Of a stretch of 64,000 nt of DNA, positions 1 through 59,141 are shown in pieces. The notes below the pieces were generated by a model. It did not search any database and was not told where the DNA came from. It worked only from the letters and a program-made list of their open reading frames with translations. Source of the DNA: Planctomycetota bacterium (GTDB lineage Bacteria > Planctomycetota > Phycisphaerae > Phycisphaerales > SM1A02); assembly GCA_009926625.1 (NCBI GenBank), contig RFON01000001.1:124001-188000 (forward strand), read 5' to 3'. The translations under genes and the position numbers were made by a program. The stretch's first letter is position 1, and each line of letters begins with the position of its first letter.

Positions 1-2441
1 TTGAAATCGATGAGCCACACATCTGCCTGATCGGGCGAGAAGCGCAGCGCAAGATTGGTGATCAACGCATGCAGCAGGGTTGACTTGCCCGAACCCGTCT
101 TGCCGGCAATCAGCGCGTGCTGGCTTGTCCCCACGCCCAGAACCAGCGATTGCAGGCGCGTTGCGCCAGACCGGCCCAGCGGAACGGTGATCGAGTCGTC
201 GGTTGTCTCGGACCAAAGCCTCCCTGGTGTCGGCGCGATGACCGCGAATGGCACCTCGACGCGCTTCGCGCGCTTGGCCGACGCCGCAATGCGCTTCAGC
301 AGCGCCGTGGCTCGGTCGTTGGAAGGGGGCGATCTCGCCGTGAACGGAAAGGGCTCGAGCGGTGTCCCTACGACGGAAAACCGTTCGGACTTCCACACGA
401 GGTTGAGCGCGCGCGCTCGCAGTTCGCGCATGTCCAAGTCACTTGGAACGGACTGCCGCGTGTCGCGCAGGAGGAGCGTGAACACGCCACACCGTGCGCC
501 ACTGGTGATCACGCTGTTGAGACGCCGGATCGCAGCCTCGCTCAGCCCCGCCGGAAAGTCCGCCATCACGAGAAATCGATAGGGCTCCGCGATCTCCCCC
601 GCCTGTCGGTTGTACGCCGCGAGGTCCGCATACTCGTTTCGCAGGAACTTCTGTATGACCGTTTCCATGTGCTCGCAGAGATCGGTCAGTCGCTGCTCCA
701 TCTGGCGCTGTTCAGTCCAGATGCGCTCGCCCACCAAGTGCTCCGCTTCATCGCTGAGGTGCATGAACGCTGCGAAGCTCTCGCCAAGCCCCACAGGATC
801 GAAGATGGTGAATCGCGCCTTGCCCGGCGGCAGCATCGTAAGCAGCCGCAGCATGGCCTCCTGCAGCAGCGCAACGCCAGCCTCGCGACCCTCCATCCCC
901 GCCTCGAGAAGCAGCGATGCCTGCGTCGGAATGGAAAGCGTCACGGGGACATGCATGATCCGCGGAGTGCCCGCAGGCCACGCGAGGTCCGGGGAGACAG
1001 GCAGGGCTCCCTTGACGCCACTCAGCGGGATGGTGATGTGTCCGAGGCTGACCGCACTTCGGGGTTCCGAAGCGCCATCAAAGCGCTCCCACGATGGATC
1101 GCTCCAAGGAAGGAACTGGCGTCGTTCGATTTCGCCGAGCCGTTGGAGGTCTCGAACCACCTGCCCCTGCGCAGTGTGCCAGTCGTTCCGCAGCGCAGTA
1201 CGACGCGCCTCCACCACGGCGCTGATTTCCCGCGCGCGTGTGGTGTGGCGATCCACCTCACGCCCGAGCGTCATCGCATGCCGCGCATCGACTTGTGCCC
1301 GAGCATCTTGGACCGACTTGGCTAAGTTCGACTTGATCTGCGCCAACTGCCCATCGTTCTTGGCGCGCAGCTCAGCCGCGGCTGCCTGCACCCGCTCGAG
1401 GCGGTGCGGCAATTGCGCCTGCAGGGCCGCGCGTCGCTCCGCCAGGGCACTTCGCACGCTCGCGACTTCCTGTTGATGGCGCAGTGAAGCAGCCTCGGTC
1501 AACCGCTCCCGCGTGTCATCGCTCCATCGCAGGGTCGCAGCAAGCAGCTGCTTCAGGCGCTCGCCTCGGTCCGCCACCGCCTGTGCGGTACCGCGCAGTG
1601 AACGACCCGCTGAGAAGAAGATAGCCCCCTGCAAGAGCGCAGAAAGCGCCAGCGCACCGATCACGATGAGTGGTCCAGTCATCTCTGCCCAGCCGACCGT
1701 CAGGGAGACAGCGCCGGCGGACAGCAGCACCACAAGGAGCAGGCACGCCGCGTGGGCAATCTTGTTCCGCAGGATCAGGGCGAACGACATGCGTCGGACA
1801 CTCACGAAGAGTTCGTCCGCGACGGATGCCTCGGCGGCGAACGCCGCCATGGGGTCGGCACCGAGCGCCGGCGAGGATCCATCTGCGTTCTCCGTTGGCA
1901 TCACCAGCGCGCGCCCAAGGAGGTCGCGAGCTCGCATCAGTGTTTCATGTGCACCGTCAAACATCGATTGGAGTTGCTGCTTTCGCTCCTGATGCTCCTT
2001 GAGGAACGAGGGGCGCTGCTCTTCGAAGATCGAGTCGGCAGTCCAGATCTGCTCCTCCATGCGGCTTTGCAACTTGTCCAACTCGGCCTCGAGCTGATCC
2101 TCCGCGCGCTCAAGCGTCCGACGCTCTTCTTCATTGATTTTCGCGGCGTTCGCGCTGTGCCGTTGCGTTGCCTGCGCGAGCACGGCCGTCGCCTTGGCGT
2201 CGATCGCGGCAAGCATGGCTTCTCGCGTTGCCTCCAATCGCTTGACTTCGGCGGCATGTCGTGCCTGCTCGGGAGGTTCGACGGACTGCACGAACGCCGC
2301 CAGCGAGGTTTCTGCCTGCAATCGCGCAGCGGGGGCTGAAGCGATCACGGAAACCACCTCAATGGCGACCTCGGCGAGCGAGCGCTGTTCACTCGAAGCC
2401 ACCGGCGGGGGCGCGGTCGATTCGGCGGCCTGATCACTCAC
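1..2441 (-). CDS. FtsK/SpoIIIE-type ATPase, membrane-anchored, T7SS EccC-like (partial, C-terminus off the left edge)
   Basis: About 813 codons are visible; the gene runs out of the window. Seen: a long charged helical, coiled-coil-like N-terminus (about 50-180), a double hydrophobic stretch (about 229-273), a second coiled coil (about 280-400), then two tandem FtsK-like ATPase modules. The first (about 490-640) has lost Walker A (AGMEGREAGVAL where AGTTGSGKS is expected), and its Walker B position reads FLVMADF. The second carries an intact Walker A, GKTGSGKST at about 779-788, followed by VWLIDF, and continues off the edge. FtsK/SpoIIIE ATPases pump DNA or, as EccC/EssC, drive type VII secretion of WXG100 proteins. 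The upstream WXG100-like gene favours the secretion role, by inference. The GTG start overlaps the preceding stop as GTGA. A DNA translocase role is less likely but not excluded. Confidence 0.8.
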   Translation of the reverse strand, partial: MSDQAAESTAPPPVASSEQRSLAEVAIEVVSVIASAPAARLQAETSLAAFVQSVEPPEQARHAAEVKRLEATREAMLAAIDAKATAVLAQATQRHSANAAKINEEERRTLERAEDQLEAELDKLQSRMEEQIWTADSIFEEQRPSFLKEHQERKQQLQSMFDGAHETLMRARDLLGRALVMPTENADGSSPALGADPMAAFAAEASVADELFVSVRRMSFALILRNKIAHAACLLLVVLLSAGAVSLTVGWAEMTGPLIVIGALALSALLQGAIFFSAGRSLRGTAQAVADRGERLKQLLAATLRWSDDTRERLTEAASLRHQQEVASVRSALAERRAALQAQLPHRLERVQAAAAELRAKNDGQLAQIKSNLAKSVQDARAQVDARHAMTLGREVDRHTTRAREISAVVEARRTALRNDWHTAQGQVVRDLQRLGEIERRQFLPWSDPSWERFDGASEPRSAVSLGHITIPLSGVKGALPVSPDLAWPAGTPRIMHVPVTLSIPTQASLLLEAGMEGREAGVALLQEAMLRLLTMLPPGKARFTIFDPVGLGESFAAFMHLSDEAEHLVGERIWTEQRQMEQRLTDLCEHMETVIQKFLRNEYADLAAYNRQAGEIAEPYRFLVMADFPAGLSEAAIRRLNSVITSGARCGVFTLLLRDTRQSVPSDLDMRELRARALNLVWKSERFSVVGTPLEPFPFTARSPPSNDRATALLKRIAASAKRAKRVEVPFAVIAPTPGRLWSETTDDSITVPLGRSGATRLQSLVLGVGTSQHALIAGKTGSGKSTLLHALITNLALRFSPDQADVWLIDF

Positions 2442-2665
2442 ATGCCACCCCCCTCGCTGCACTCGCTTCGGGCGCGGGAGATCGCCTCACCGAGCTGGTC
2501 GAGAGCCAGCATGGCAAGGCGCACCGACTCCTCCGCGCGTTCCACAACCTCATGCTGGACACGGTCGCTTTGCGCATCGTTCCACTGGCTTCGAATGACG
2601 CCCCACTGCGCCTGCAGGGTACGCACGGCGTCCTTCAACTTTGCCTTGTGCGATGAGTCGCTCAT
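2438..2665 (-). CDS. Small helical protein of the FtsK/WXG100 locus
   Basis: A 75-residue all-helical, charged protein with no membrane segment or signal peptide. It has Trp at 21 and 28, the second in SQWNDAQSDRV, which resembles the W-x-G/D turn of WXG100 proteins. The size and helix-turn-helix layout would fit a second WXG100-like partner, but the match is weak and no family was recognised with certainty. Its ATG overlaps the stop of the preceding gene (ATGA), and its own stop overlaps the GTG of the FtsK-type ATPase (GTGA), so it is very likely translationally coupled to both. Inferred role: secreted partner or adaptor of the ATPase. Confidence 0.65.
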   Translation of the reverse strand: MSDSSHKAKLKDAVRTLQAQWGVIRSQWNDAQSDRVQHEVVERAEESVRLAMLALDQLGEAISRARSECSEGGGM

Positions 2666-3255
2666 GAACGCACCTCGTCGTCCGCCTGATCCTCGCTGCC
2701 CGATCGTCGCATCGATGCCGTCGGGTCCATCGGCGTCACGCCTTCGCTGGACGAGTCGACGATGGGTGAAGCCTGTGCTGCGAGATAGGCATCGACCGAC
2801 GCGGCCATTCGATTGAGCGAGGCGACAGCCGATGGCGCAACTTGATCGACGAATGTCCCGAGAGCACCCATGCCCGCTCGGAAGTTCGCCAAGACCCTCT
2901 GGAACTCCATCACCCAGTATCGCGTCCGCCGCAGGCGACCCTCCGCATCCGCGAGCGCGGCTTCCGCGCGCGCCACCGCCTTGCGCTCATCCACCGTCGA
3001 AGGCGGGCGTCCGTCGGCTGTTGGCTGCATCTGCTTGCGCATGAGTTCGCCTCGCGCCTCGTTGAGCCGAGCCGTTCGAAGGCGCACCTCCCGCTCCCAG
3101 CCACATTGTGCCTCCCCCGACAGCCACATCGCAAACCGCTCCGCATCGGCCTGCGACCCCTCAAGCACCGACGCCATGCTGAGCGCGCACTTGGCGATGA
3201 CGGCCTTCGCGTCCAGGATCGCCTTGGTGTCGCGGATGTTTGCGCCAGCGTCCAC
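2662..3255 (-). CDS. Helical protein of the FtsK/WXG100 locus, unrecognised family
   Basis: A 197-residue protein from a GTG start 9 bp after the WXG100-like gene. It is mostly alpha-helical and looks like a long helical bundle: conserved-looking Trp in AMWLSGEAQCGWEREV (about 43-56), a charged coiled-coil-like stretch at 60-125, another helix at about 128-165, and a polar, low-complexity acidic tail rich in Ser, Asp and Glu. No signal peptide or membrane segment is seen. It overlaps the next gene by 4 nt. The position between a WXG100-like gene and an FtsK-type ATPase suggests a substrate, chaperone or structural partner of the same apparatus. I do not recognise a named domain. Confidence 0.65.
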   Translation of the reverse strand: MDAGANIRDTKAILDAKAVIAKCALSMASVLEGSQADAERFAMWLSGEAQCGWEREVRLRTARLNEARGELMRKQMQPTADGRPPSTVDERKAVARAEAALADAEGRLRRTRYWVMEFQRVLANFRAGMGALGTFVDQVAPSAVASLNRMAASVDAYLAAQASPIVDSSSEGVTPMDPTASMRRSGSEDQADDEVRS

Positions 3256-51298: not shown

Positions 51299-54200
51299 TC
51301 AGGCGGGCGTGACTCGGGCAAGCCCGTGCGAGGGAGTCCCCCCCGCGGCGGGCACGCTGCGATCCTCTTCCTTCGAGTAGGTCAGCGTTCCTGCGATGAC
51401 CACCGAGCTGATCGTTCCAGTGATGAGTCCGACGATGAAGGTGAACGCGAACGGCTGGATTGCTGGGCCACCGTAGACATACAACACGCCTGCCGAGATC
51501 AACGTGGTTCCACCCGTCAACAGCGTTCGGCTGAAGGTCTGATTGATGGAGTCGTTCACTGTCGACCATGATGCGTACCGCAGTTTGCCCTTGTTTTCTC
51601 GGATTCGATCAAGGATCACGATCGTGTCATTGAGCGAGTATCCAATGATCGTCAAAAGGGCAGCGATTACATTGAGATCTATGCGAAATGCTTCAAGGAG
51701 GGTCGCCTTGGCGAGATCGGTTCCCGTGAGGCGAAGCGACAGCGCAAGGGCACCGAGGCAGACCAACACATTGAAGACCACGGCGATCACCGTCGCCGCG
51801 GAGTAACGGAAGCTGGAGAATCGCAGCCAGATGTAGATCACCATTCCGACGAGGCTGACGATGATTGCCACGATCGCGGATGCAGCGAGGTTGGCGGCAA
51901 CGACGGGTGAGAAGCTGCTGACCTGTTCAAGGCTCTGCTTGCCTGCGAACGCGGTCTGGATCAGCCGCCATTCGCTCTGCGCAACGACCCGCTCCCAGGT
52001 GGCGGCGTCCACCTTCGTGAGGAGGGCTGACGGCTCTACCGCCATGACTGCCATGGACTTCCAACCCTGTTGAGGGTTTGCTGGGTCGGCAAGTTCAAGC
52101 CCAACCACCTCAAACCGTCGAGCGCTGAGGGCAGAGAAATCTGGCTGCTTGCGCATTCTGGCAATTCGGGTGGTTGCGTCTTCGAGGGTCACGGGGGGCT
52201 GCAGGTCCTTCAAGACCACCGCCACTCCGCCGGCAAAGTCGCCGACCGACCGTTTGTCGGTTGGAACGCCGATGCACGCGCCGAGCGTTTCGCTGCTGAT
52301 GGCATAGGTCGCCGCAGCGCCAACAGAATCTTCCATGCCGGTGAATCGGACGGGCATGGTGACATCGAGCGCTTGGGCGAACTCCGTGGTCAGTGCCTCC
52401 ACGAGCGGCTCGGTCGCGGTTTCCTTATCGCCGAGGTCCGCCGGATTTGCCACTCGGACCTGGAAGCCTGTGGACGCACCATCGGGGGTCGACTCGCCCA
52501 CGGTCAGCACATTCGCGCTTCGAAGCTCCGCGATCACGGGCAGCGATGCCTTGGCGCCGACCTCGCGAACGCGACGCTCGACTTCCTCGCGGTTGAGGAG
52601 CAGCCTTCCGCTCGGCGACGCGGGCTCACCCGCCGCAGCCTTGCGCGTGACCATGGTCATCGTCACGCCACCGCGGAACTCCGTCTCAAGCAGTTCGCGC
52701 CCTGCCCCCACCACGAGCCACAAGCTGGCGATCGAAACGATCCCGCACGCGGTCCACGAAAACGCGCGAAGCCGCAGCCAGTCAATGTCTGGGCGCAGCA
52801 GTTTCATCATGCCCGGCAGGAGCGTCGTCAGCATCGGCATCCGCTTCAACCCGAACCAGTTCACCAGGATCGCCATCATGATCCGCGTGCAGAACAAGGC
52901 CGTGAAAAGCGTCGTGAGGACGCCGATCATCATGGTGAGCGCAAAACCCTTGACCTCCGTCGCCGCGAGCTTGTAGAGCACGACGCACACGATCAGGTTG
53001 GTGACATTGCCGTCGATGATGGCGTTGAACGCGCGCGCAAAGCCAAGGTCGAGCGCGTTCTTGAGCGACTCCTTGTTGTCGATGAGTTCCTCGCGCGTTC
53101 GCTCGAGCACCAGCACATTCGCATCGACGGCCATGCCGACGACGAGCGCGATGCCGGCCAAGCCGGGCAGCGTGAACGACCCATCGATCATCGCCATGAT
53201 TCCGAAGATCATGCCGAGGTTGAGCACCACGGCGATGTCGGCGACGACTCCCGCGAGGAGGTAATAGATCGCCATCAGCACTGCGGTCGCGATCGCAGCG
53301 AGCACAACAGCCGTCAGTCCACGCAACAGGTTGTCGCGACCGAGCGCAGGACCAAGGATGCTGACCGAGATCGGCTCTGGGCGAAGTTTCGCCTCCAGTT
53401 CGCCGCCTTGAAGCACGCGGATCAGGTAATCGATCTCTTCTTGCGTGAAGGAGCCGGTGATCTGACCGTTCCCGGGAATCTGCGACTGCAGGGTCGGGGC
53501 GGAAAAGAGTTGCCCATCGAGCACGATTCCCATCGGGCGACCGATGTTGGCCCCTGTGAGCTTGCCCATCAGGATTCCGCCGGCTGGATCGAGCTGGAAC
53601 GCCACACAGGTTCGTCCAAGTTGGTCTTGACTGGGGAAGACCGCCTTCATCGACCACTGCCGACCACCGAGGTGGTCCAGACTCATCGCATCGGTCGTGT
53701 AGAGAAGCGCGTACGGCTGGCCGTCGTACTTGGCGCCCACCATGTCGCGAGCGCGCAGATAGGAGGCGGGGTCGGCAAGGAAAGACTCAATCTGCTCCGG
53801 CGAGTCGCCCCACTGCTTCGGATCGTTGATGGGGTACCAACGCGCAACGGGCGAATCAGTTCCCGACGGTCCGCGTTCCGCCAACTGCTTGCGGACTTCA
53901 TCAGGATTGACCCCCTCAGGGCCAGCCGCGCTCACGGCGATGCGGAACTCAAGGACGCCAGCGCCTCGGAGCAGCCGCTTGAGGTCTTCGGGATCGTCGT
54001 AGCCGCTGATCTGCGTTGCATAGTCGCCGTATGACTTCGCCAACTCGGCGATATCCGCCGAGAAGTCGGGCAACTGCGCCTGCAGCGCCTGCACCTCGAG
54101 GTCGCGCGGGCTCGGGCCGGTCATTGGAGTGCCGTCGTCAGCGAACTTCGCCTTCCCCTTCTCGTCGCGAAGCCTCGGACGATCCGTCGACAGGGTGACC

Positions 54201-54847
54201 GCGCGCCGCAGCCGCGCCTGATCGATGTTGCCGGCCATGATGACCGCCCGTGCGCTGCGATCACTGACCTCCGCCTGCGCAATGTCTGATTCGAGACGCC
54301 CGAGTTCTGCGGCATCTGCCCCGCGGGTGAGCGCGTCCTGATAGGCCGTCCGTGCCTCGCGCGCCTTGTTTGCTGCCGCCTGCAGCTGCTCGAGTGCCTG
54401 TCGCCGCGGTCCCGCCGCAGCACCTGACACGGGGGCCGGGGCAAGGTCGGGTGCTCGACCCGCATCGAGCGCCGCCTGCAATTCACTTGGAGAAATCGAC
54501 ATCTGATCGCCGAGCAGTGCCATGCGCTCGCGCACGGCGTCCCCTGCGGCCCGTACCTCGGGCGAGGGCAGCGGCATCACGACTTCGATGCGGTCGAGTC
54601 CCTGCGGCTGCAGCGAGATGTCAAGCACGCCTTGTGGGTTCACGCGGCGCTTCAGCGAATCGATCACCTGGGCGAGGATTCGCTGGCGGTCTCCCCCTTC
54701 GGGCATGTCCACCGCATACACCATGCTGACGCCGCCACGGAGGTCTTTCCCAAGGCGAACGCCTGTTTCCCACGGGAAGACCTGCCACACGCAGAACGCG
54801 ATGACGACGACGGCGAAGATGAGGCGCGGCAGGATCCGGAAGTTCAC
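51299..54847 (-). CDS. secDF: Fused SecD-SecF protein translocase subunit
   Basis: A 1182-residue fusion of SecD and SecF. The SecD half has one N-terminal and five C-terminal transmembrane helices, with a periplasmic region enlarged by a coiled coil (about 145-205), and the motif ALVVGMAVDANVLVLERTRE. The SecF half starts near residue 700 and carries LLTIIGYSLNDTIVILDRIRENKG. It uses the proton-motive force to complete Sec-dependent export at the inner membrane. Fusion of the two halves is found in several phyla and is not itself unusual. It overlaps yajC by 4 nt (ATGA) and closes a coupled tgt-yajC-secDF unit. Confidence 0.97.
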   Translation of the reverse strand: MNFRILPRLIFAVVVIAFCVWQVFPWETGVRLGKDLRGGVSMVYAVDMPEGGDRQRILAQVIDSLKRRVNPQGVLDISLQPQGLDRIEVVMPLPSPEVRAAGDAVRERMALLGDQMSISPSELQAALDAGRAPDLAPAPVSGAAAGPRRQALEQLQAAANKAREARTAYQDALTRGADAAELGRLESDIAQAEVSDRSARAVIMAGNIDQARLRRAVTLSTDRPRLRDEKGKAKFADDGTPMTGPSPRDLEVQALQAQLPDFSADIAELAKSYGDYATQISGYDDPEDLKRLLRGAGVLEFRIAVSAAGPEGVNPDEVRKQLAERGPSGTDSPVARWYPINDPKQWGDSPEQIESFLADPASYLRARDMVGAKYDGQPYALLYTTDAMSLDHLGGRQWSMKAVFPSQDQLGRTCVAFQLDPAGGILMGKLTGANIGRPMGIVLDGQLFSAPTLQSQIPGNGQITGSFTQEEIDYLIRVLQGGELEAKLRPEPISVSILGPALGRDNLLRGLTAVVLAAIATAVLMAIYYLLAGVVADIAVVLNLGMIFGIMAMIDGSFTLPGLAGIALVVGMAVDANVLVLERTREELIDNKESLKNALDLGFARAFNAIIDGNVTNLIVCVVLYKLAATEVKGFALTMMIGVLTTLFTALFCTRIMMAILVNWFGLKRMPMLTTLLPGMMKLLRPDIDWLRLRAFSWTACGIVSIASLWLVVGAGRELLETEFRGGVTMTMVTRKAAAGEPASPSGRLLLNREEVERRVREVGAKASLPVIAELRSANVLTVGESTPDGASTGFQVRVANPADLGDKETATEPLVEALTTEFAQALDVTMPVRFTGMEDSVGAAATYAISSETLGACIGVPTDKRSVGDFAGGVAVVLKDLQPPVTLEDATTRIARMRKQPDFSALSARRFEVVGLELADPANPQQGWKSMAVMAVEPSALLTKVDAATWERVVAQSEWRLIQTAFAGKQSLEQVSSFSPVVAANLAASAIVAIIVSLVGMVIYIWLRFSSFRYSAATVIAVVFNVLVCLGALALSLRLTGTDLAKATLLEAFRIDLNVIAALLTIIGYSLNDTIVILDRIRENKGKLRYASWSTVNDSINQTFSRTLLTGGTTLISAGVLYVYGGPAIQPFAFTFIVGLITGTISSVVIAGTLTYSKEEDRSVPAAGGTPSHGLARVTPA

Positions 54848-55266
54848 GATGCGGCTCCTTGCGTGCTGCCCGTTCGCACCTGCGCGATCGCACTCTTGGA
54901 AACGGTCATTCGCACATTCGAGTTCTCATCGATCTTCAAGATGACCGTGTCGTCCTTGATCTCCACCACGGAGCCAATGATCCCGCCGATTGTTTGCACT
55001 TCGTCGTGCCGCTTGATCGACTCCATCAGCGCGGAACGCTTCTTGCGTTCACGGCGCTGCCCGAACATCGTGAACACCACCAGAATGAGCACAAAGGGAA
55101 TGACGATCCACATGCCGCCGAGCGGATCTGCCGCGGGGCGCGGGGTCCCCTCGGTCGCGCCGGTCGGTTGGCCGACCGCGCCTGGCGCCACCACTGGCGT
55201 CTCGCCCGGCAGCGGCGGTGCATCTTGGAGTGCGGTCATGGAAATCGGGAGCAGCATGTCAATCAT
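54844..55266 (-). CDS. yajC: Preprotein translocase subunit YajC
   Basis: 140 residues: an N-terminal Pro/Ala/Gly-rich segment, one transmembrane helix (about 53-72, WIVIPFVLILVVFTMFGQ), then the conserved cytoplasmic QRRERKKRSALMESIKRHDEV, QTIGGIIGSVVEIKDD and VRMTVSKSAIAQV. It is an accessory of SecDF-YidC. ATG 55266 overlaps the tgt stop by a few bases; the ATG at 55257 is another option. The extended N-terminus is longer than in E. coli YajC. Confidence 0.95.
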   Translation of the reverse strand: MIDMLLPISMTALQDAPPLPGETPVVAPGAVGQPTGATEGTPRPAADPLGGMWIVIPFVLILVVFTMFGQRRERKKRSALMESIKRHDEVQTIGGIIGSVVEIKDDTVILKIDENSNVRMTVSKSAIAQVRTGSTQGAAS

Positions 55267-56443
55267 CGGGAGGTCCTGGCTCGTTCCCTTCGCCATGGTC
55301 CAGCGTTGTGCAGGGCCATCGGAGGGGCAGGTCGAGCCACGCATCATCCTCTATCGCGCGCCGAATGTCTAGTAGCAACCTTTGATAGAGACGGATGTTG
55401 TGAATCGATGCCAGCGTCGGGCCGAGCATTTCCCCCGCGAGGAAGAGGTGCCGCAAGTAGGCCCGCGAGAATCCCCCGCGGCACGCCTCACAGTCGCAGT
55501 CTTCCTCGATGGGGCGCGGATCGTCGGCATGAACGGCGTTTCGAAGCCGAAGGGAACCCCCGCGCGTGAAAACCATCCCATTGCGCCCATTGCGAGTTGG
55601 CAACACGCAGTCGAACATGTCGATGCCCGCGGCGACCGCCATCAGGATGTCCGATGGATAGCCGACGCCCATGAGGTATCGAGGCTTGTCGTGCGGCAAC
55701 TTCGGCGCGACATGCTGCACCACGCGGACGATCGCCGTCGGACCCTCCCCCACCGCGACGCCGCCGATGGCGAAGCCCGGCAAGTCGTGGGCACAGGTTG
55801 CATCGAGCGATGCGCTGCGGAGTGCAAGGTCCGTGCCGCCCTGCACGATGCCGAACAGCGCCTGATCATCCCGCGTGTGCGCAGCGATGCATCGTTCGAG
55901 CCACCGAAGCGTGCGATCCTTCGCCTGCACGACACGAGCGCGGGTTGACTCGCTCGGTGCGTCATCGGATGCCGATGGACAGTCGTCGAACGCCATCGCG
56001 ATGTCCGCGCCGAGCGCCTGCTGCACAGCCATGCTCGACTCGGGTCCCAAGTGAACCGAAGCGCCGTCGATGAACGACTGGAAGGCGACGCCGGATTCAT
56101 CGAGCCGATTGATGCCTGCCATCGAGAATGCCTGGAAGCCCCCTGAGTCGGTCAGGATCGGCCCATCCCAGCGCATGAACGCGTGCACCCCGCCGAGGGC
56201 ACGGATCCGTTCGGCGCCGGGCCGCAACAAGAGATGGAACGCGTTGTTGAGGATGCACTCGCTGCCGGTTGCGTTCACTTGCGCGGGCGTCAAGCCCTTC
56301 ATGGCTGCTGCGGTGGCCACGGGCATGAACGCGGGTGTCTCAAACGAGCCATGCGCGGTCGTGATGCATCCACGGCGAGCATGCGGCGCGCCCGAACAGC
56401 CAGTTCGGGTGCTGGCATAGCGGATGCTGTGTCGAGTGGTCAT
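55259..56443 (-). CDS. tgt: Queuine tRNA-ribosyltransferase
   Basis: 394 residues. TIM barrel with LTDSGGFQAFSM (catalytic Asp region), GGVAVGEG, RYLMGVGYPSDIL, DCVLPTRNGR (D with the R-N-G-R) and the zinc site CDCEACRGGFSRAYLRHLF (C-x-C-x-x-C...H). It exchanges guanine-34 for preQ1 in tRNAs with GUN anticodons. ATG 56443 overlaps the rhomboid stop by 4 nt. tgt with yajC and secDF is a common bacterial gene order. Confidence 0.97.
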   Translation of the reverse strand: MTTRHSIRYASTRTGCSGAPHARRGCITTAHGSFETPAFMPVATAAAMKGLTPAQVNATGSECILNNAFHLLLRPGAERIRALGGVHAFMRWDGPILTDSGGFQAFSMAGINRLDESGVAFQSFIDGASVHLGPESSMAVQQALGADIAMAFDDCPSASDDAPSESTRARVVQAKDRTLRWLERCIAAHTRDDQALFGIVQGGTDLALRSASLDATCAHDLPGFAIGGVAVGEGPTAIVRVVQHVAPKLPHDKPRYLMGVGYPSDILMAVAAGIDMFDCVLPTRNGRNGMVFTRGGSLRLRNAVHADDPRPIEEDCDCEACRGGFSRAYLRHLFLAGEMLGPTLASIHNIRLYQRLLLDIRRAIEDDAWLDLPLRWPCTTLDHGEGNEPGPPDD

Positions 56444-57600
56444 CCGCCGTGGCGATGGGTTGCGTCTCGAAGCGTTCGCCGCTCGCTCTCTGTCAACGAG
56501 CCGAGTCCGCTTGATCTGATCTTGTCGAGGATTCGATCCACTTCGCCCGACGATGGTGCGCCCGCGCGGCCCGATCCTGCCTGCCCGCGCGAAGTCCGCT
56601 CGAGGCCCGCGCGCTGGACACGCCGTGCGGAATGGAATGTGCTCGTGGGGTCGACCGCGCCGAGCAGATCGAAGAAACTGCGAAGGCGGTCTGGATTGTG
56701 GATGAGGTACCACCCAGCAACGGCGCCGCCAATGTGCGCTGCCTCGCCGCCGGCGTTTTTCCAGCGCAGCAGCACCGCGGCGCAGGCGAAAAGGACAAGC
56801 CCATAGGCCAGTGTCTTCAGCCGCATGGGAATCACGAAGAACAACAACACCCTTGCGTCGGGCATCAGTCGAGCGGAGGCGATGATGATGCCGAAGACAC
56901 CTGCGCTTGCACCGACGAGCGGCATGTCGGGATCATTGAGCAGCAGTCCAGGTATCACCACACGCGCGCCGGCGGACGCCATGAGGTAGCCAGCGAGATT
57001 CAGGATCAGGTACAGCAGCGCACCCGCAACGCCGCACAGCAAGTAGAAGGCGGTGAATCGTTTCGCCCCGAGATACCGTTCCACCACGGGCCCGAAGAAG
57101 TACAGCCCGATCATGTTGAAGATCAGGTGGTTGAGGTCGGCGTGACAGAACTGGAATCCGATGAACCTCCAGACCTGCAGCGCGCTGACGCCGACCCCTG
57201 GAATGGTCGAGTACAGCGCCGTGGAAGTCGAGAAGTACAGCCAGCGCTGCAAGAACGGCATCGACTGAACGGTGTTCACTGCCACTGGAACGGGGGTTCC
57301 GTCGGCGCGCGGCGCGAAGACAGCCTGTTCCGCGATGAGCACCTTGGCCGGATCCGCGTCGATCGGTCCAACACTGCTCGCACGCACGCCGCTGAGGATG
57401 TCGCGCTGCACCGGCTCTGGCACGCTTGAGTCCCACTGCGAACCGATCACCACCCACTGCCGCGGCAGGAACGCATCCGCGACAAAGACCCCCACACAGA
57501 AGATGATCAACCAGGTCGTGGCACTCCACCCAGATTGCGCCCCCAGCACGCGGCGCGAGGGAGGATCCTCTCGCCAATAGTCGCGGTCAGCGGTACCCAT
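56440..57600 (-). CDS. Rhomboid-family intramembrane serine protease with DUF6576-like tail
   Basis: 386 residues. About six transmembrane helices; the rhomboid core has HADLNHLIFNMIGLYFFG, catalytic Ser in LVGASAGVFGIIIAS (G-A-S-A-G) and catalytic His in AAHIGGAVAGWYL. A large N-terminal extracytoplasmic loop of about 120 residues (about 55-140) separates helix 1 from the core. The C-terminal tail EVDRILDKIRSSGLGSLTESERRTLRDATHR resembles the DUF6576 module attached to many rhomboids. Probably cleaves membrane proteins within the bilayer; substrate unknown. 12 bp after the M50-like gene, sharing a similar tail. Confidence 0.93.
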   Translation of the reverse strand: MGTADRDYWREDPPSRRVLGAQSGWSATTWLIIFCVGVFVADAFLPRQWVVIGSQWDSSVPEPVQRDILSGVRASSVGPIDADPAKVLIAEQAVFAPRADGTPVPVAVNTVQSMPFLQRWLYFSTSTALYSTIPGVGVSALQVWRFIGFQFCHADLNHLIFNMIGLYFFGPVVERYLGAKRFTAFYLLCGVAGALLYLILNLAGYLMASAGARVVIPGLLLNDPDMPLVGASAGVFGIIIASARLMPDARVLLFFVIPMRLKTLAYGLVLFACAAVLLRWKNAGGEAAHIGGAVAGWYLIHNPDRLRSFFDLLGAVDPTSTFHSARRVQRAGLERTSRGQAGSGRAGAPSSGEVDRILDKIRSSGLGSLTESERRTLRDATHRHGG

Positions 57601-57612
57601 TCCGCTCGAAGG

Positions 57613-58623
57613 CTACCCACGCTTGCGCCGAGTTGCCGATCGCAGGAAGCGGCGTTCGCGCCACGACAGCGAACGCATGCCGCCCTTGGCGATCTTGGCG
57701 AGCAGTGTGTCGAGCCGACGCTCCTCGTCGGCGCGCTCCGCGGCACGGCGCGCGCGCAGCGCATCGCGCTCTTCCGGCCAATCCGTCGCCTCGCGCGGCG
57801 CAAGTCCAAGCCGCAGCAACCTGCCGCCGCGCGATCCGACCGACAGCCCGATCCCGCAGGCGAGCAGCGGGAGCAGCGAGTGCGTCCCAAGTGCGATCAC
57901 ACAGCCGAGCAACGCGAGCCCCATGCCGATCCAGAGCGTGCGTTCACGGGCAACCCGTCGAGTCAGTCGCGGCTCGAGCAGACTCTCGAGGATTCGCCCC
58001 CCCGGCATCGGATGAAATGGCAGCAGGCTGACGAGCAGGACCATCGAGGCGGTCCACCCCGCGAGCCAGATGAGCGCATCCACCCAGTCGCTCTCGAGCG
58101 CATGGAATCCCGCATCGGAGTGCGGATTCGGCAGCCAATCCCATGACAGCGGCTGACCACGCAGCGCGAGCGCGCCAGCGGCGATGCCAACCACGAGCGC
58201 GAGCACGACTGGACCAGCTGCAGCGGCGGCAAGCCGATGGACCCATGGGCCGGGCGGGTCGTTCCATCGGATGCCCCCCCATGGCGCGAGCGACAGCGAA
58301 CATGGCGCTGCGCCGCAGCGCCTCGAGACGAACTCGCGCGCGACATCATGGAGCAGCGCGCACCAACAGGCCATCACGAGCACGATGACCCCTGCGCGCA
58401 TCTCGCCCGGCACTGGGCCAGTCGCCACCGGCAGCGCCAACCGAATCAGTTGGAGCAGCACGAGGGCAAGCAGCGAGACATGGACTCGGACTGACCACCG
58501 ACCGACTGGAACGAGCGGCAGATCCCATGTCCACGGGGCATCCGCTAGTCGTGCAACACCCGCGATGTTTCCAGTGGTGTCGACTTCGCGATCCTCCCCG
58601 TCGGCATCGGGCGGCCACTTCAC
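57613..58623 (-). CDS. M50 (site-2 protease)-like membrane protein with degenerate active site
   Basis: 336 residues with about six transmembrane helices. The layout follows site-2 proteases: a hydrophobic helix with LLHDVAREFVSRRCG where HExxH is expected (His92 kept, Glu to Asp93, second His to Arg96), and LLPFHPMPGGRILES where the family has N-P-x-P-x-L-D-G-G (the metal-binding Asp is a Pro). Thus probably catalytically inactive, perhaps a pseudoprotease or adaptor. The tail LLAKIAKGGMRSLSWRERRFLRSATRR strongly resembles that of the adjacent rhomboid. GTG start overlaps the nudF stop (GTGA). Confidence 0.7.
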   Translation of the reverse strand: MKWPPDADGEDREVDTTGNIAGVARLADAPWTWDLPLVPVGRWSVRVHVSLLALVLLQLIRLALPVATGPVPGEMRAGVIVLVMACWCALLHDVAREFVSRRCGAAPCSLSLAPWGGIRWNDPPGPWVHRLAAAAAGPVVLALVVGIAAGALALRGQPLSWDWLPNPHSDAGFHALESDWVDALIWLAGWTASMVLLVSLLPFHPMPGGRILESLLEPRLTRRVARERTLWIGMGLALLGCVIALGTHSLLPLLACGIGLSVGSRGGRLLRLGLAPREATDWPEERDALRARRAAERADEERRLDTLLAKIAKGGMRSLSWRERRFLRSATRRKRG

Positions 58624-59141
58624 GGCTGCATGACTTTCCAGCGAAGGTATGTCGCCAATGTCTTGCCGTCACACACTTCACCCGCAGCGATCATTCGCTC
58701 GAATCCGAGTTGGTCGACGAACTGAACCTCGATTCGCTCATCTGCCTCGAGGCGTGTGGGGCACGGCGTGAGGTCCGTTGCAAGGAACGCATGCATCCGT
58801 TCATCAGTGAATCCTGGTGATGTGAAGAATGTTCCGAGGGGCGTCATGCATCCCGCACTGTGCCCAGTCTCCTCTTCCAACTCACGCCGTGCCGCGTCGC
58901 ATGGGTCCTCGCCAGGTTCGAGTTTCCCCGCACAGAATTCGTGCAGCCACTCGTCCACTGCGATGCGCCTGTTGCGGATCGTGACCAAGCTGCCATCGCG
59001 CCGCAGGGCCATCACGCAGACCGCCCCAGGGTGGCGAACGATGTAGCGTTCGGCCGCCCCTCCAGCGGGCAGTTGAATCGTCATGCGTTCGACATCGAAG
59101 ATGTGGCTGTGCAGGACGATGTCGCGGGGTTCGCGTGGCAT
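58620..59141 (-). CDS. nudF: ADP-ribose pyrophosphatase-type Nudix hydrolase
   Basis: 173 residues with the complete Nudix box GKLEPGEDPCDAARRELEEETG (G-x5-E-x7-R-E-L-x-E-E-x-G). N-terminal beta domain with VRHPGAVCVMALRRDG. Cleaves ADP-ribose or related nucleoside diphosphate-X compounds; the box alone does not fix the substrate, and the length and N-terminal pattern favour NudF. It opens the block of overlapping genes that runs down to secDF. Confidence 0.9.
   Translation of the reverse strand: MPREPRDIVLHSHIFDVERMTIQLPAGGAAERYIVRHPGAVCVMALRRDGSLVTIRNRRIAVDEWLHEFCAGKLEPGEDPCDAARRELEEETGHSAGCMTPLGTFFTSPGFTDERMHAFLATDLTPCPTRLEADERIEVQFVDQLGFERMIAAGEVCDGKTLATYLRWKVMQP

Follow-up and report, generated by a model that had tools for sequence, protein, structure and literature searches.

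The minus strand of a 64,000-nucleotide stretch of a Planctomycetota genome (contig RFON01000001.1; the whole stretch is hereafter called the window) encodes a rhomboid intramembrane protease and, next to it, a relative of the M50 family (site-2 proteases, S2Ps) whose active site has been lost, and these two proteins end in homologous copies of one short domain, DUF6576 (Pfam PF20216). The same domain is carried by rhomboids and M50 proteins across the phylum, and the M50 proteins that carry it appear to have been inactivated more than once. We tentatively suggest, giving the idea somewhat less than an even chance, that DUF6576 is a docking module for one third partner shared by both proteases, and that the dead M50 protein has become a dispensable adaptor. 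A preliminary description, made from the letters of the window, had reported the two genes, the 12 bp between the M50-like stop and the rhomboid start, and a similar C-terminal motif on two unrelated intramembrane-protease folds; all of these observations hold. It had also proposed a complex of the two proteins with the M50-like protein as scaffold or substrate receptor, to which we return below.

Both tails are present as described, VDRILDKIRSSGLGSLTESERRTLRDAT on the rhomboid and LDTLLAKIAKGGMRSLSWRERRFLRSAT on the M50-like protein. They are identical at 16 of 33 positions, and their local alignment score of 68 (mean of shuffled sequences, 20.4) was equaled in none of 20,000 shuffles, whereas the proteins minus their tails score 33, no better than shuffled sequence (mean 37.7). 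When a profile built from 25 rhomboid tails was aligned to one built from 30 M50 tails, the probability was 99.2% (E 1.2e-19), and both sets share six invariant columns (L, K, G, L, E, and L). These alignments lead us to conclude that the two tails are homologous. The rhomboid tail exceeds the curated cut-off of DUF6576 (30.8 bits vs 27.3), while the M50-like tail scores just under it with hmmscan (26.8 bits) and over it in the genome search (30.4 bits). Pfam lists the function of the family as unknown, and the sharing of the domain between different owners was found in the present analysis; no paper naming DUF6576 was found in the literature searched, which covers few papers from subscription journals. 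In AlphaFold2 (AF2) models the tail forms a helical hairpin on both proteins, for which a comparison with the PDB returned chance-level matches alone (best E 0.71 and 0.26) and no convincing solved structure. Given the topologies of GlpG-type rhomboids and of S2Ps with six transmembrane segments, the tail should lie on the cytosolic side.

The preliminary description had further stated that the M50-like protein lacks HExxH and the Asp of LDG, and alignment to the S2P of known structure mjS2P (3b4r) and to active relatives agrees: HDVAR is aligned under HELGH and MPGG under MDGG of mjS2P (phmmer whole-sequence E 1.3e-4). By these alignments, neither the HExxH nor the LDG zinc-ligand Asp of an active S2P is present, one of the three zinc ligands remains, and the catalytic Glu is replaced by Asp. 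The AF2 model (predicted local distance difference test score, pLDDT, 83.8) has 3b4r as its top Foldseek match (1.9e-8), and VIA aligns 213 residues of the two with a Z of 20.0 and a root-mean-square deviation of 3.5, barely covering the tail region; SpoIVFB (8vjm) comes next in VIA (Z 13.6). Both mjS2P and SpoIVFB are S2P proteases with the catalytic motif, unlike the window protein, in which two zinc ligands and the catalytic Glu are missing. Against the Pfam model Peptidase_M50 (PF02163) the protein scores 20.4 bits, under the curated cut-off of 27.2; four tailed M50s from outside the window's order, Phycisphaerales, exceed this cut-off (L202, L224, L228, and L229) and a dead one is under it (L210). 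The protein is thus predicted to have the M50/S2P fold with its active site lost.

The rhomboid matches the Pfam Rhomboid family (PF01694) with 96.9 bits (cut-off 22.6), the top Foldseek match of its AF2 model (pLDDT 87.4) is GlpG (2irv, 6.9e-4), and its Ser-His dyad is complete, with Ser232 and His289 invariant across 41 aligned sequences. We therefore regard it as a predicted protease whose catalytic site is intact. The model also has a beta-rich insert between membrane helices 1 and 2 (window positions 57259-57459; strands 48-56, 89-97, and 103-114), which is probably periplasmic.

A search for the tail in the rest of the window's genome (2.58 Mb, 105 contigs), which the preliminary description had recommended, detected no DUF6576 match beyond the pair (profile search, E up to 1). 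Across the phylum, however, the domain is widespread. Of 121 genomes sampled from the order, 119 have one or two matches (E up to 0.01), and of 199 sampled from the phylum, 184 have matches, at most five in any one genome. Because of this spread, a pair-specific tail was rejected as the main explanation. One of 14 control genomes, that of Bacteroides ihuae, had a match at E up to 0.01. We classed 138 phylum loci by the best tail at each; these were the best-scoring rows of a longer match list plus ten tail-rich genomes; two of the loci belong to the window's order, and one region is present twice. The owner is a rhomboid at 103 loci, an M50 protein at 32, and another protein at three, namely (i) two signal recognition particle (SRP) M-domain-like proteins, recognized by the SRP_SPB profile, and (ii) the cut tail of a neighboring M50. 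Against the DUF6576 cut-off of 27.3, the two SRP M-domain-like owners score 29.6 bits (over) and 25.2 bits (under).

Ten genomes chosen for having two SRP_SPB matches were surveyed for this third owner. All seven examined genomes of family f26 encode an SRP M-domain-like protein that stands alone, as a short paralogue distinct from ffh (L244, L255, L269-L274, and L276), and in four of them its gene is within about 3 kb of ffh on the same contig; scored with our own model, its C-terminal tail is clear in six (24.0-34.9 bits) and weak in one (5.2 bits, E 0.44). Three genomes of family f30 (L275, L277, and L278) also have a second SRP_SPB protein, on which no tail match was found. That the tail might sit on a genuine Ffh was also considered and rejected, as the tailed protein is the separate short paralogue. 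Furthermore, five sampled genomes (G151, G201, G236, G282, and G286; 86-94% complete) yielded a single tail at E up to 0.001, carried by an M50 protein, and in three others (G205, G299, and G185) tailed M50 and rhomboid are on different contigs. One locus (L232) encodes tandem tailed M50s (637-1623 and 2052-3002), both with HExxH.

Within the order, the pairing of the two genes, whose conservation the preliminary description had left to be checked, is conserved. In 79 fetched loci (80 less the duplicate L112) plus the window, 56 of 57 M50-like open reading frames (ORFs) are tailed and 51 have a rhomboid in the same orientation either overlapping or no more than 120 bp away, the M50 coming first in 46 and the rhomboid in 5; the remaining six comprise one that is 1,325 bp from a rhomboid and five without a rhomboid on the locus. 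These counts are not independent of the choice of loci, since L041-L120 were mostly fetched for holding DUF6576, about half of them as neighboring tail pairs. The M50 and the rhomboid of L045, a locus that shares its contig with L198, are about 1.3 kb apart (between 4512 and 5837). Among the 80 named loci picked by their rhomboid, plus the window, the rhomboid is tailed in 81 of 81, the only other tailed ORFs are M50s, and one rhomboid (L179) is unmatched by the His-motif pattern; 45 of the 80 loci also contain an M50 ORF. L121-L200 are the best 80 of 415 confirmed rhomboid relatives, ranked by a query that included the tail. The nearest named relatives, 94% identical over the rhomboid query, are metagenome-assembled genomes with the titles Phycisphaerae, Planctomycetia, and Planctomycetota, and several further ones bear the title Phycisphaerales. 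The two sets overlap in genomes (L045 and L198 share a contig, for example), and identical proteins were dropped from the trees. With our own tail model, no tail was detected on one rhomboid beside a tailed M50 (L099) or on some second rhomboids (L048, L049, and L096), and two genomes of the order (L101/L102 and L103/L104) have a tailed M50 and a rhomboid that are not linked. Paired rhomboids occur at the cluster in L066 (3626-5509), L048, L049, and L096; in L066, both are tailed and no M50 is on the locus.

The loss of the M50 active site is not confined to the window. We scored 130 loci, those left for a FastTree tree of rhomboid plus tgt once loci without tgt had been dropped, and found the M50 active in 51, dead in 31, absent in 36, and unclear in 12; absence refers to the locus, since for L104 a tailed M50 is found elsewhere on the contig (L103). 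This tree requires at least four changes between active and dead M50, the M50 gene tree two. The full motif is present in 56 of 89 distinct tailed M50s and incomplete in the other 33. The dead signature of the window's genus is HDxAR or QDVAR with PGG or AGG; others are ADSVR, RExxR with intact LDGG, HExxT with FRG, HExxR with LTGG, LPGG, or LAAG, and HEIGK, and motif-less tailed M50s are also found elsewhere in the phylum (L210, L281, L352, and L354). Dead M50s have long branches in the M50 tree, and one clade of the rhomboid-plus-tgt tree interleaves nine dead and eight absent among its 17 loci. As far as sequences can tell, bacterial S2Ps appear to have turned into pseudoenzymes more than once.

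The dead protein nevertheless evolves under purifying selection. By the Nei-Gojobori method, which is near saturation in the wide pairs, the ratio of nonsynonymous to synonymous substitution rates (dN/dS) of the dead M50 lies between 0.115 and 0.146 in all six pairs of the window clade, where reading frames are kept open, and 0.080-0.176 across ten pairs of the HDAAR clade; the rhomboid of the window clade has 0.052-0.078. Finite M50 values range from 0.069 to 0.455 in 53 dead-clade pairs (two with infinite dS) and from 0.084 to 0.508 in 22 active-clade pairs (one infinite). The M50-to-rhomboid ratio of dN is 0.9-3.7 in dead clades, with 2.1-3.6 in the window clade, and 0.6-2.2 in active clades. 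These values and ratios indicate that the dead M50 is constrained, yet less so than the neighboring rhomboid, and they are consistent with a non-catalytic role as scaffold or receptor. Mean pairwise identities of membrane core, linker, and tail are 0.83/0.57/0.88 in the window clade, where the tail is conserved at least as well as the core, 0.85/0.58/0.87 in the HDAAR, 0.68/0.57/0.81 in the RExxR, 0.56/0.36/0.72 in the HExxR, and 0.62/0.42/0.60 in the HExxT clade, and 0.49/0.25/0.52 among active M50s.

Rhomboids keep their tail whether or not an M50 is encoded beside them: all 36 rhomboids at loci without M50 are tailed, and mean rhomboid-tail scores are 40.6 bits beside an active M50 (n=51), 45.6 beside a dead one (n=31), and 43.8 where it is absent (n=36), in groups that differ in kinship. 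Co-evolution of cognate tails beyond that expected from phylogeny is not clear (82 pairs, partial Mantel r 0.068, with 174 of 2000 permutations as high).

In the window, the pair is part of a gene cluster on the minus strand in the order nudix, M50-like, rhomboid, tgt, yajC, and fused secDF (Table 1), in which the GTG start of the M50-like gene and the nudix stop overlap by 4 bp, and the 1182-aa ORF at 51299-54847 is what we take to be SecDF, with SecD and SecF apparently fused in one ORF. This cluster, nudix-M50-rhomboid-tgt-yajC-secDF, is conserved. In the 130 loci, all of them chosen to hold tgt, tgt is directly downstream in 126, yajC was found in 125, and a secDF homologue in 124; nudix is directly upstream in 96 (116 loci had upstream room), and it abuts the rhomboid in 25 of the 36 loci without M50.

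Table 1. Predicted genes, domains, and motif sites of the cluster, in window positions
Feature	Position	Strand	Basis
Rhomboid intramembrane serine protease (predicted), 386 aa, catalytic residues intact, C-terminal DUF6576	56440..57600	-	Pfam, alignment, AF2 model, Foldseek
DUF6576 tail of the rhomboid, VDRILDKIRSSGLGSLTESERRTLRDATHRHGG, predicted helical hairpin	56443..56541	-	Pfam; model helices 351-364, 371-385
Codon of catalytic Ser232 (GASAG motif)	56905..56907	-	Invariant in 41-sequence alignment
Codon of catalytic His289	56734..56736	-	Invariant in 41-sequence alignment
Predicted M50/S2P-fold pseudoprotease, 336 aa, C-terminal DUF6576	57613..58623	-	phmmer, AF2, Foldseek, VIA vs 3b4r
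HDVAR (residues 92-96) replacing HExxH, with Asp for the Glu and Arg for the second His	58336..58350	-	Alignment to 3b4r and active relatives
MPGG (residues 206-209) replacing LDGG, with Pro for the zinc-ligand Asp	57997..58008	-	Alignment to 3b4r and active relatives
DUF6576 tail of the M50-like protein, LDTLLAKIAKGGMRSLSWRERRFLRSATRRKRG	57616..57714	-	Pfam, homology to rhomboid tail; model helices 283-314, 321-335 (full-length numbering, shifted by 29 from the model)
NudE-like nudix hydrolase, upstream gene	58620..59141	-	Pfam NUDIX 58.8 bits; NudE model below its cut-off
tgt (queuine tRNA-ribosyltransferase), downstream gene, start approximate	55259..56425	-	Pfam TGT 463.5 bits
yajC	54844..55347	-	Pfam YajC 69.9 bits
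Fused secDF (presumed)	51299..54847	-	1182-aa ORF; name assigned from sequence

Three results argue against a private bond between the two tails: (i) the rhomboid tail is kept without M50; (ii) no clear co-variation of the tails beyond phylogeny was detected; and (iii) each protease can carry the tail in the absence of the other, as does a third protein. A shared third partner is the simplest reading of these results. If so, an active rhomboid and an M50/S2P protein, dead in the window, would carry the same cytosolic helical-hairpin module, which would recruit each of them to one common partner at a site where membrane proteins are inserted or checked. Rhomboids, M50 proteins, and SRP M-domain-like proteins are all families that handle hydrophobic helices, and in the order the genes stand beside yajC-secDF, which is why we would place the partner at a site of membrane-protein biogenesis or quality control, most likely the Sec/SecDF-YajC translocon, the ribosome, or an associated AAA+ protease. 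The rhomboid would there cut faulty or orphan transmembrane segments; the M50 protein would originally have been a second cutter and, in the window lineage and several others, would have become a non-catalytic, substrate-binding adaptor, helpful yet dispensable. A more elaborate proposal is that DUF6576 tags the members of a Planctomycetota membrane-protein surveillance hub, in which a partner at the ribosome or Sec site would recruit the rhomboid, the S2P (active or dead), and, in one family, the SRP M-like chaperone, so that hydrophobic helices would be captured, cut, or handed on in one location, as in a bacterial counterpart of co-translational endoplasmic-reticulum-associated degradation; this we consider doubtful.

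Several observations weigh against a shared partner served by a retained adaptor. An M50-like match was found in only nine of the 19 genomes of the genus, the ten without one being 70-96% complete, and the dead M50 of the window clade changes faster than the rhomboid, as its dN ratio indicates, so that relaxed constraint on the way to loss would fit as well. The mean tail score of dead M50s (37.7 bits, n=31) is below that of active ones (43.1 bits, n=51), and in the HExxT clade the tail is no more conserved than the core. As the M50 tree needs only two changes, the inactivations may number fewer than four. The two SRP M-domain-like proteins tested with Pfam are split by the DUF6576 cut-off, and the tailed form was detected in a single family. 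Cognate tails score slightly above non-cognate ones in five of five distance bands (65.2 vs 62.8 overall), which leaves room for some co-variation. Finally, tgt-yajC-secDF is a common bacterial cluster, and its neighborhood, although counted in favor of a common partner, is therefore weak evidence of common function.

The complex envisaged in the preliminary description, in which the tails would bind each other and the dead M50 would be scaffold or substrate receptor, is in our view unlikely. It would explain why 51 of 57 M50 ORFs are adjacent to and co-oriented with a rhomboid (although many of these loci were picked as neighboring tail pairs), why 45 of the 80 rhomboid-picked loci contain an M50, why dead forms are tailed and under purifying selection, and why cognate tails are slightly more alike in every band. 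However, the rhomboid tail is equally conserved without M50, five sampled genomes have the tail, at E up to 0.001, only on M50, tail distances show a low partial correlation, and the tail is also borne by an SRP M-domain-like protein. Selection on the dead M50 thus fits the non-catalytic role that had been proposed, but an obligate, tail-held pair is not the best reading, because the tail stays on the rhomboid in 36 of 36 loci lacking M50, five sampled genomes have it, at this threshold, on M50 alone, co-evolution is not clear, and ten of 19 genus genomes have no M50-like match. No more credible to us is that the tail does serve a common partner while the dead M50 of the window's genus is functionless and on its way out, from active to dead to deleted: the M50-less genomes of the genus, the clade in which dead and absent are interleaved, the faster change relative to the rhomboid, and the lower tail scores of dead M50s point in this direction, whereas the low dN/dS with open reading frames and the tail identity of 0.88 in the window clade point away from it, as do the long branches of dead M50s, which suggest long retention after catalysis was lost.

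Two further explanations dispense with a common partner. The hairpin might be a reused oligomerization module through which each protease binds its own kind; a short helical hairpin with conserved hydrophobic positions would suit this, as would the lack of clear cognate co-evolution, but the invariant Lys, Gly, and Glu fit a binding surface equally, and homo-oligomerization does not predict that, in our sample, the tail is restricted to proteins that handle helices, so that we think it improbable. Alternatively, the sharing could be an accident of tandem arrangement, arising from recombination between the ends of neighboring genes and implying no functional link. The M50-rhomboid adjacency would allow this; however, tailed M50s and rhomboids that lie on separate contigs in three phylum genomes and are unlinked in two genomes of the order, together with a third, unrelated tailed protein, largely refute it, and we give it next to no credence.

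Parts of the proposed function have precedents, by analogy, in systems already described. The Bacillus subtilis rhomboid YqgP works with FtsH in membrane-protein quality control and acts as a substrate adaptor apart from its own catalysis (PMC7231995); as in the window, a rhomboid is paired with another membrane protease, but that partner is the AAA+ protease FtsH, not an S2P-fold protein, the member of the window pair that is dead is the S2P and not the rhomboid, and the extramembrane domain described for YqgP is N-terminal whereas the window tail is C-terminal. Orphan membrane proteins are the targets of Shigella GlpG and Rhom7, which matches what we propose for the window rhomboid, and the abstract of that paper mentions no S2P partner (PMC7232013). 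Plant EGY3 is described as a highly conserved pseudo-S2P, as the only pseudoenzyme of its family, and as identified only in plant cells (PMC9355673); it resembles the window protein in kind only, as an S2P homologue without catalytic residues that is retained by selection, while the dead S2Ps described here are bacterial, have several signatures, and bear DUF6576. The iRhoms, rhomboid pseudoproteases, illustrate the principle of a dead intramembrane-protease relative with a regulatory role (PMC3149277), in a different fold and with the difference that in the window the S2P is dead and the rhomboid intact.

The DUF6576 domain, rhomboids, and the S2P fold are already known; the presence of DUF6576 on rhomboid, M50, and SRP M-like proteins and the recurrence of bacterial pseudo-S2Ps are, as far as we searched, new. 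Literature searches on rhomboid/site-2 protease pairs, pseudoproteases, and interacting intramembrane proteases yielded no such report among the matches listed, with subscription journals mostly outside the coverage, and a term search of a review of bacterial S2Ps (PMC10202637) showed neither DUF6576 sharing nor pseudo-S2Ps among the passages listed. If the docking proposal is correct, DUF6576 becomes a tag with which the partner can be directly fished for, and two intramembrane-protease families, normally investigated separately, would operate from a common platform. Repeated conversion of bacterial S2Ps into pseudoenzymes, if true, would run contrary to the statement in PMC9355673 that EGY3 is the family's sole pseudoenzyme.

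Some records titled Bacteroidia, Chitinophaga pinensis, or Singulisphaera sp. GP187 (L154, L196, L126, and L129-L131) carry the Phycisphaerales-type cluster; they are probably mislabeled metagenome-assembled genomes.

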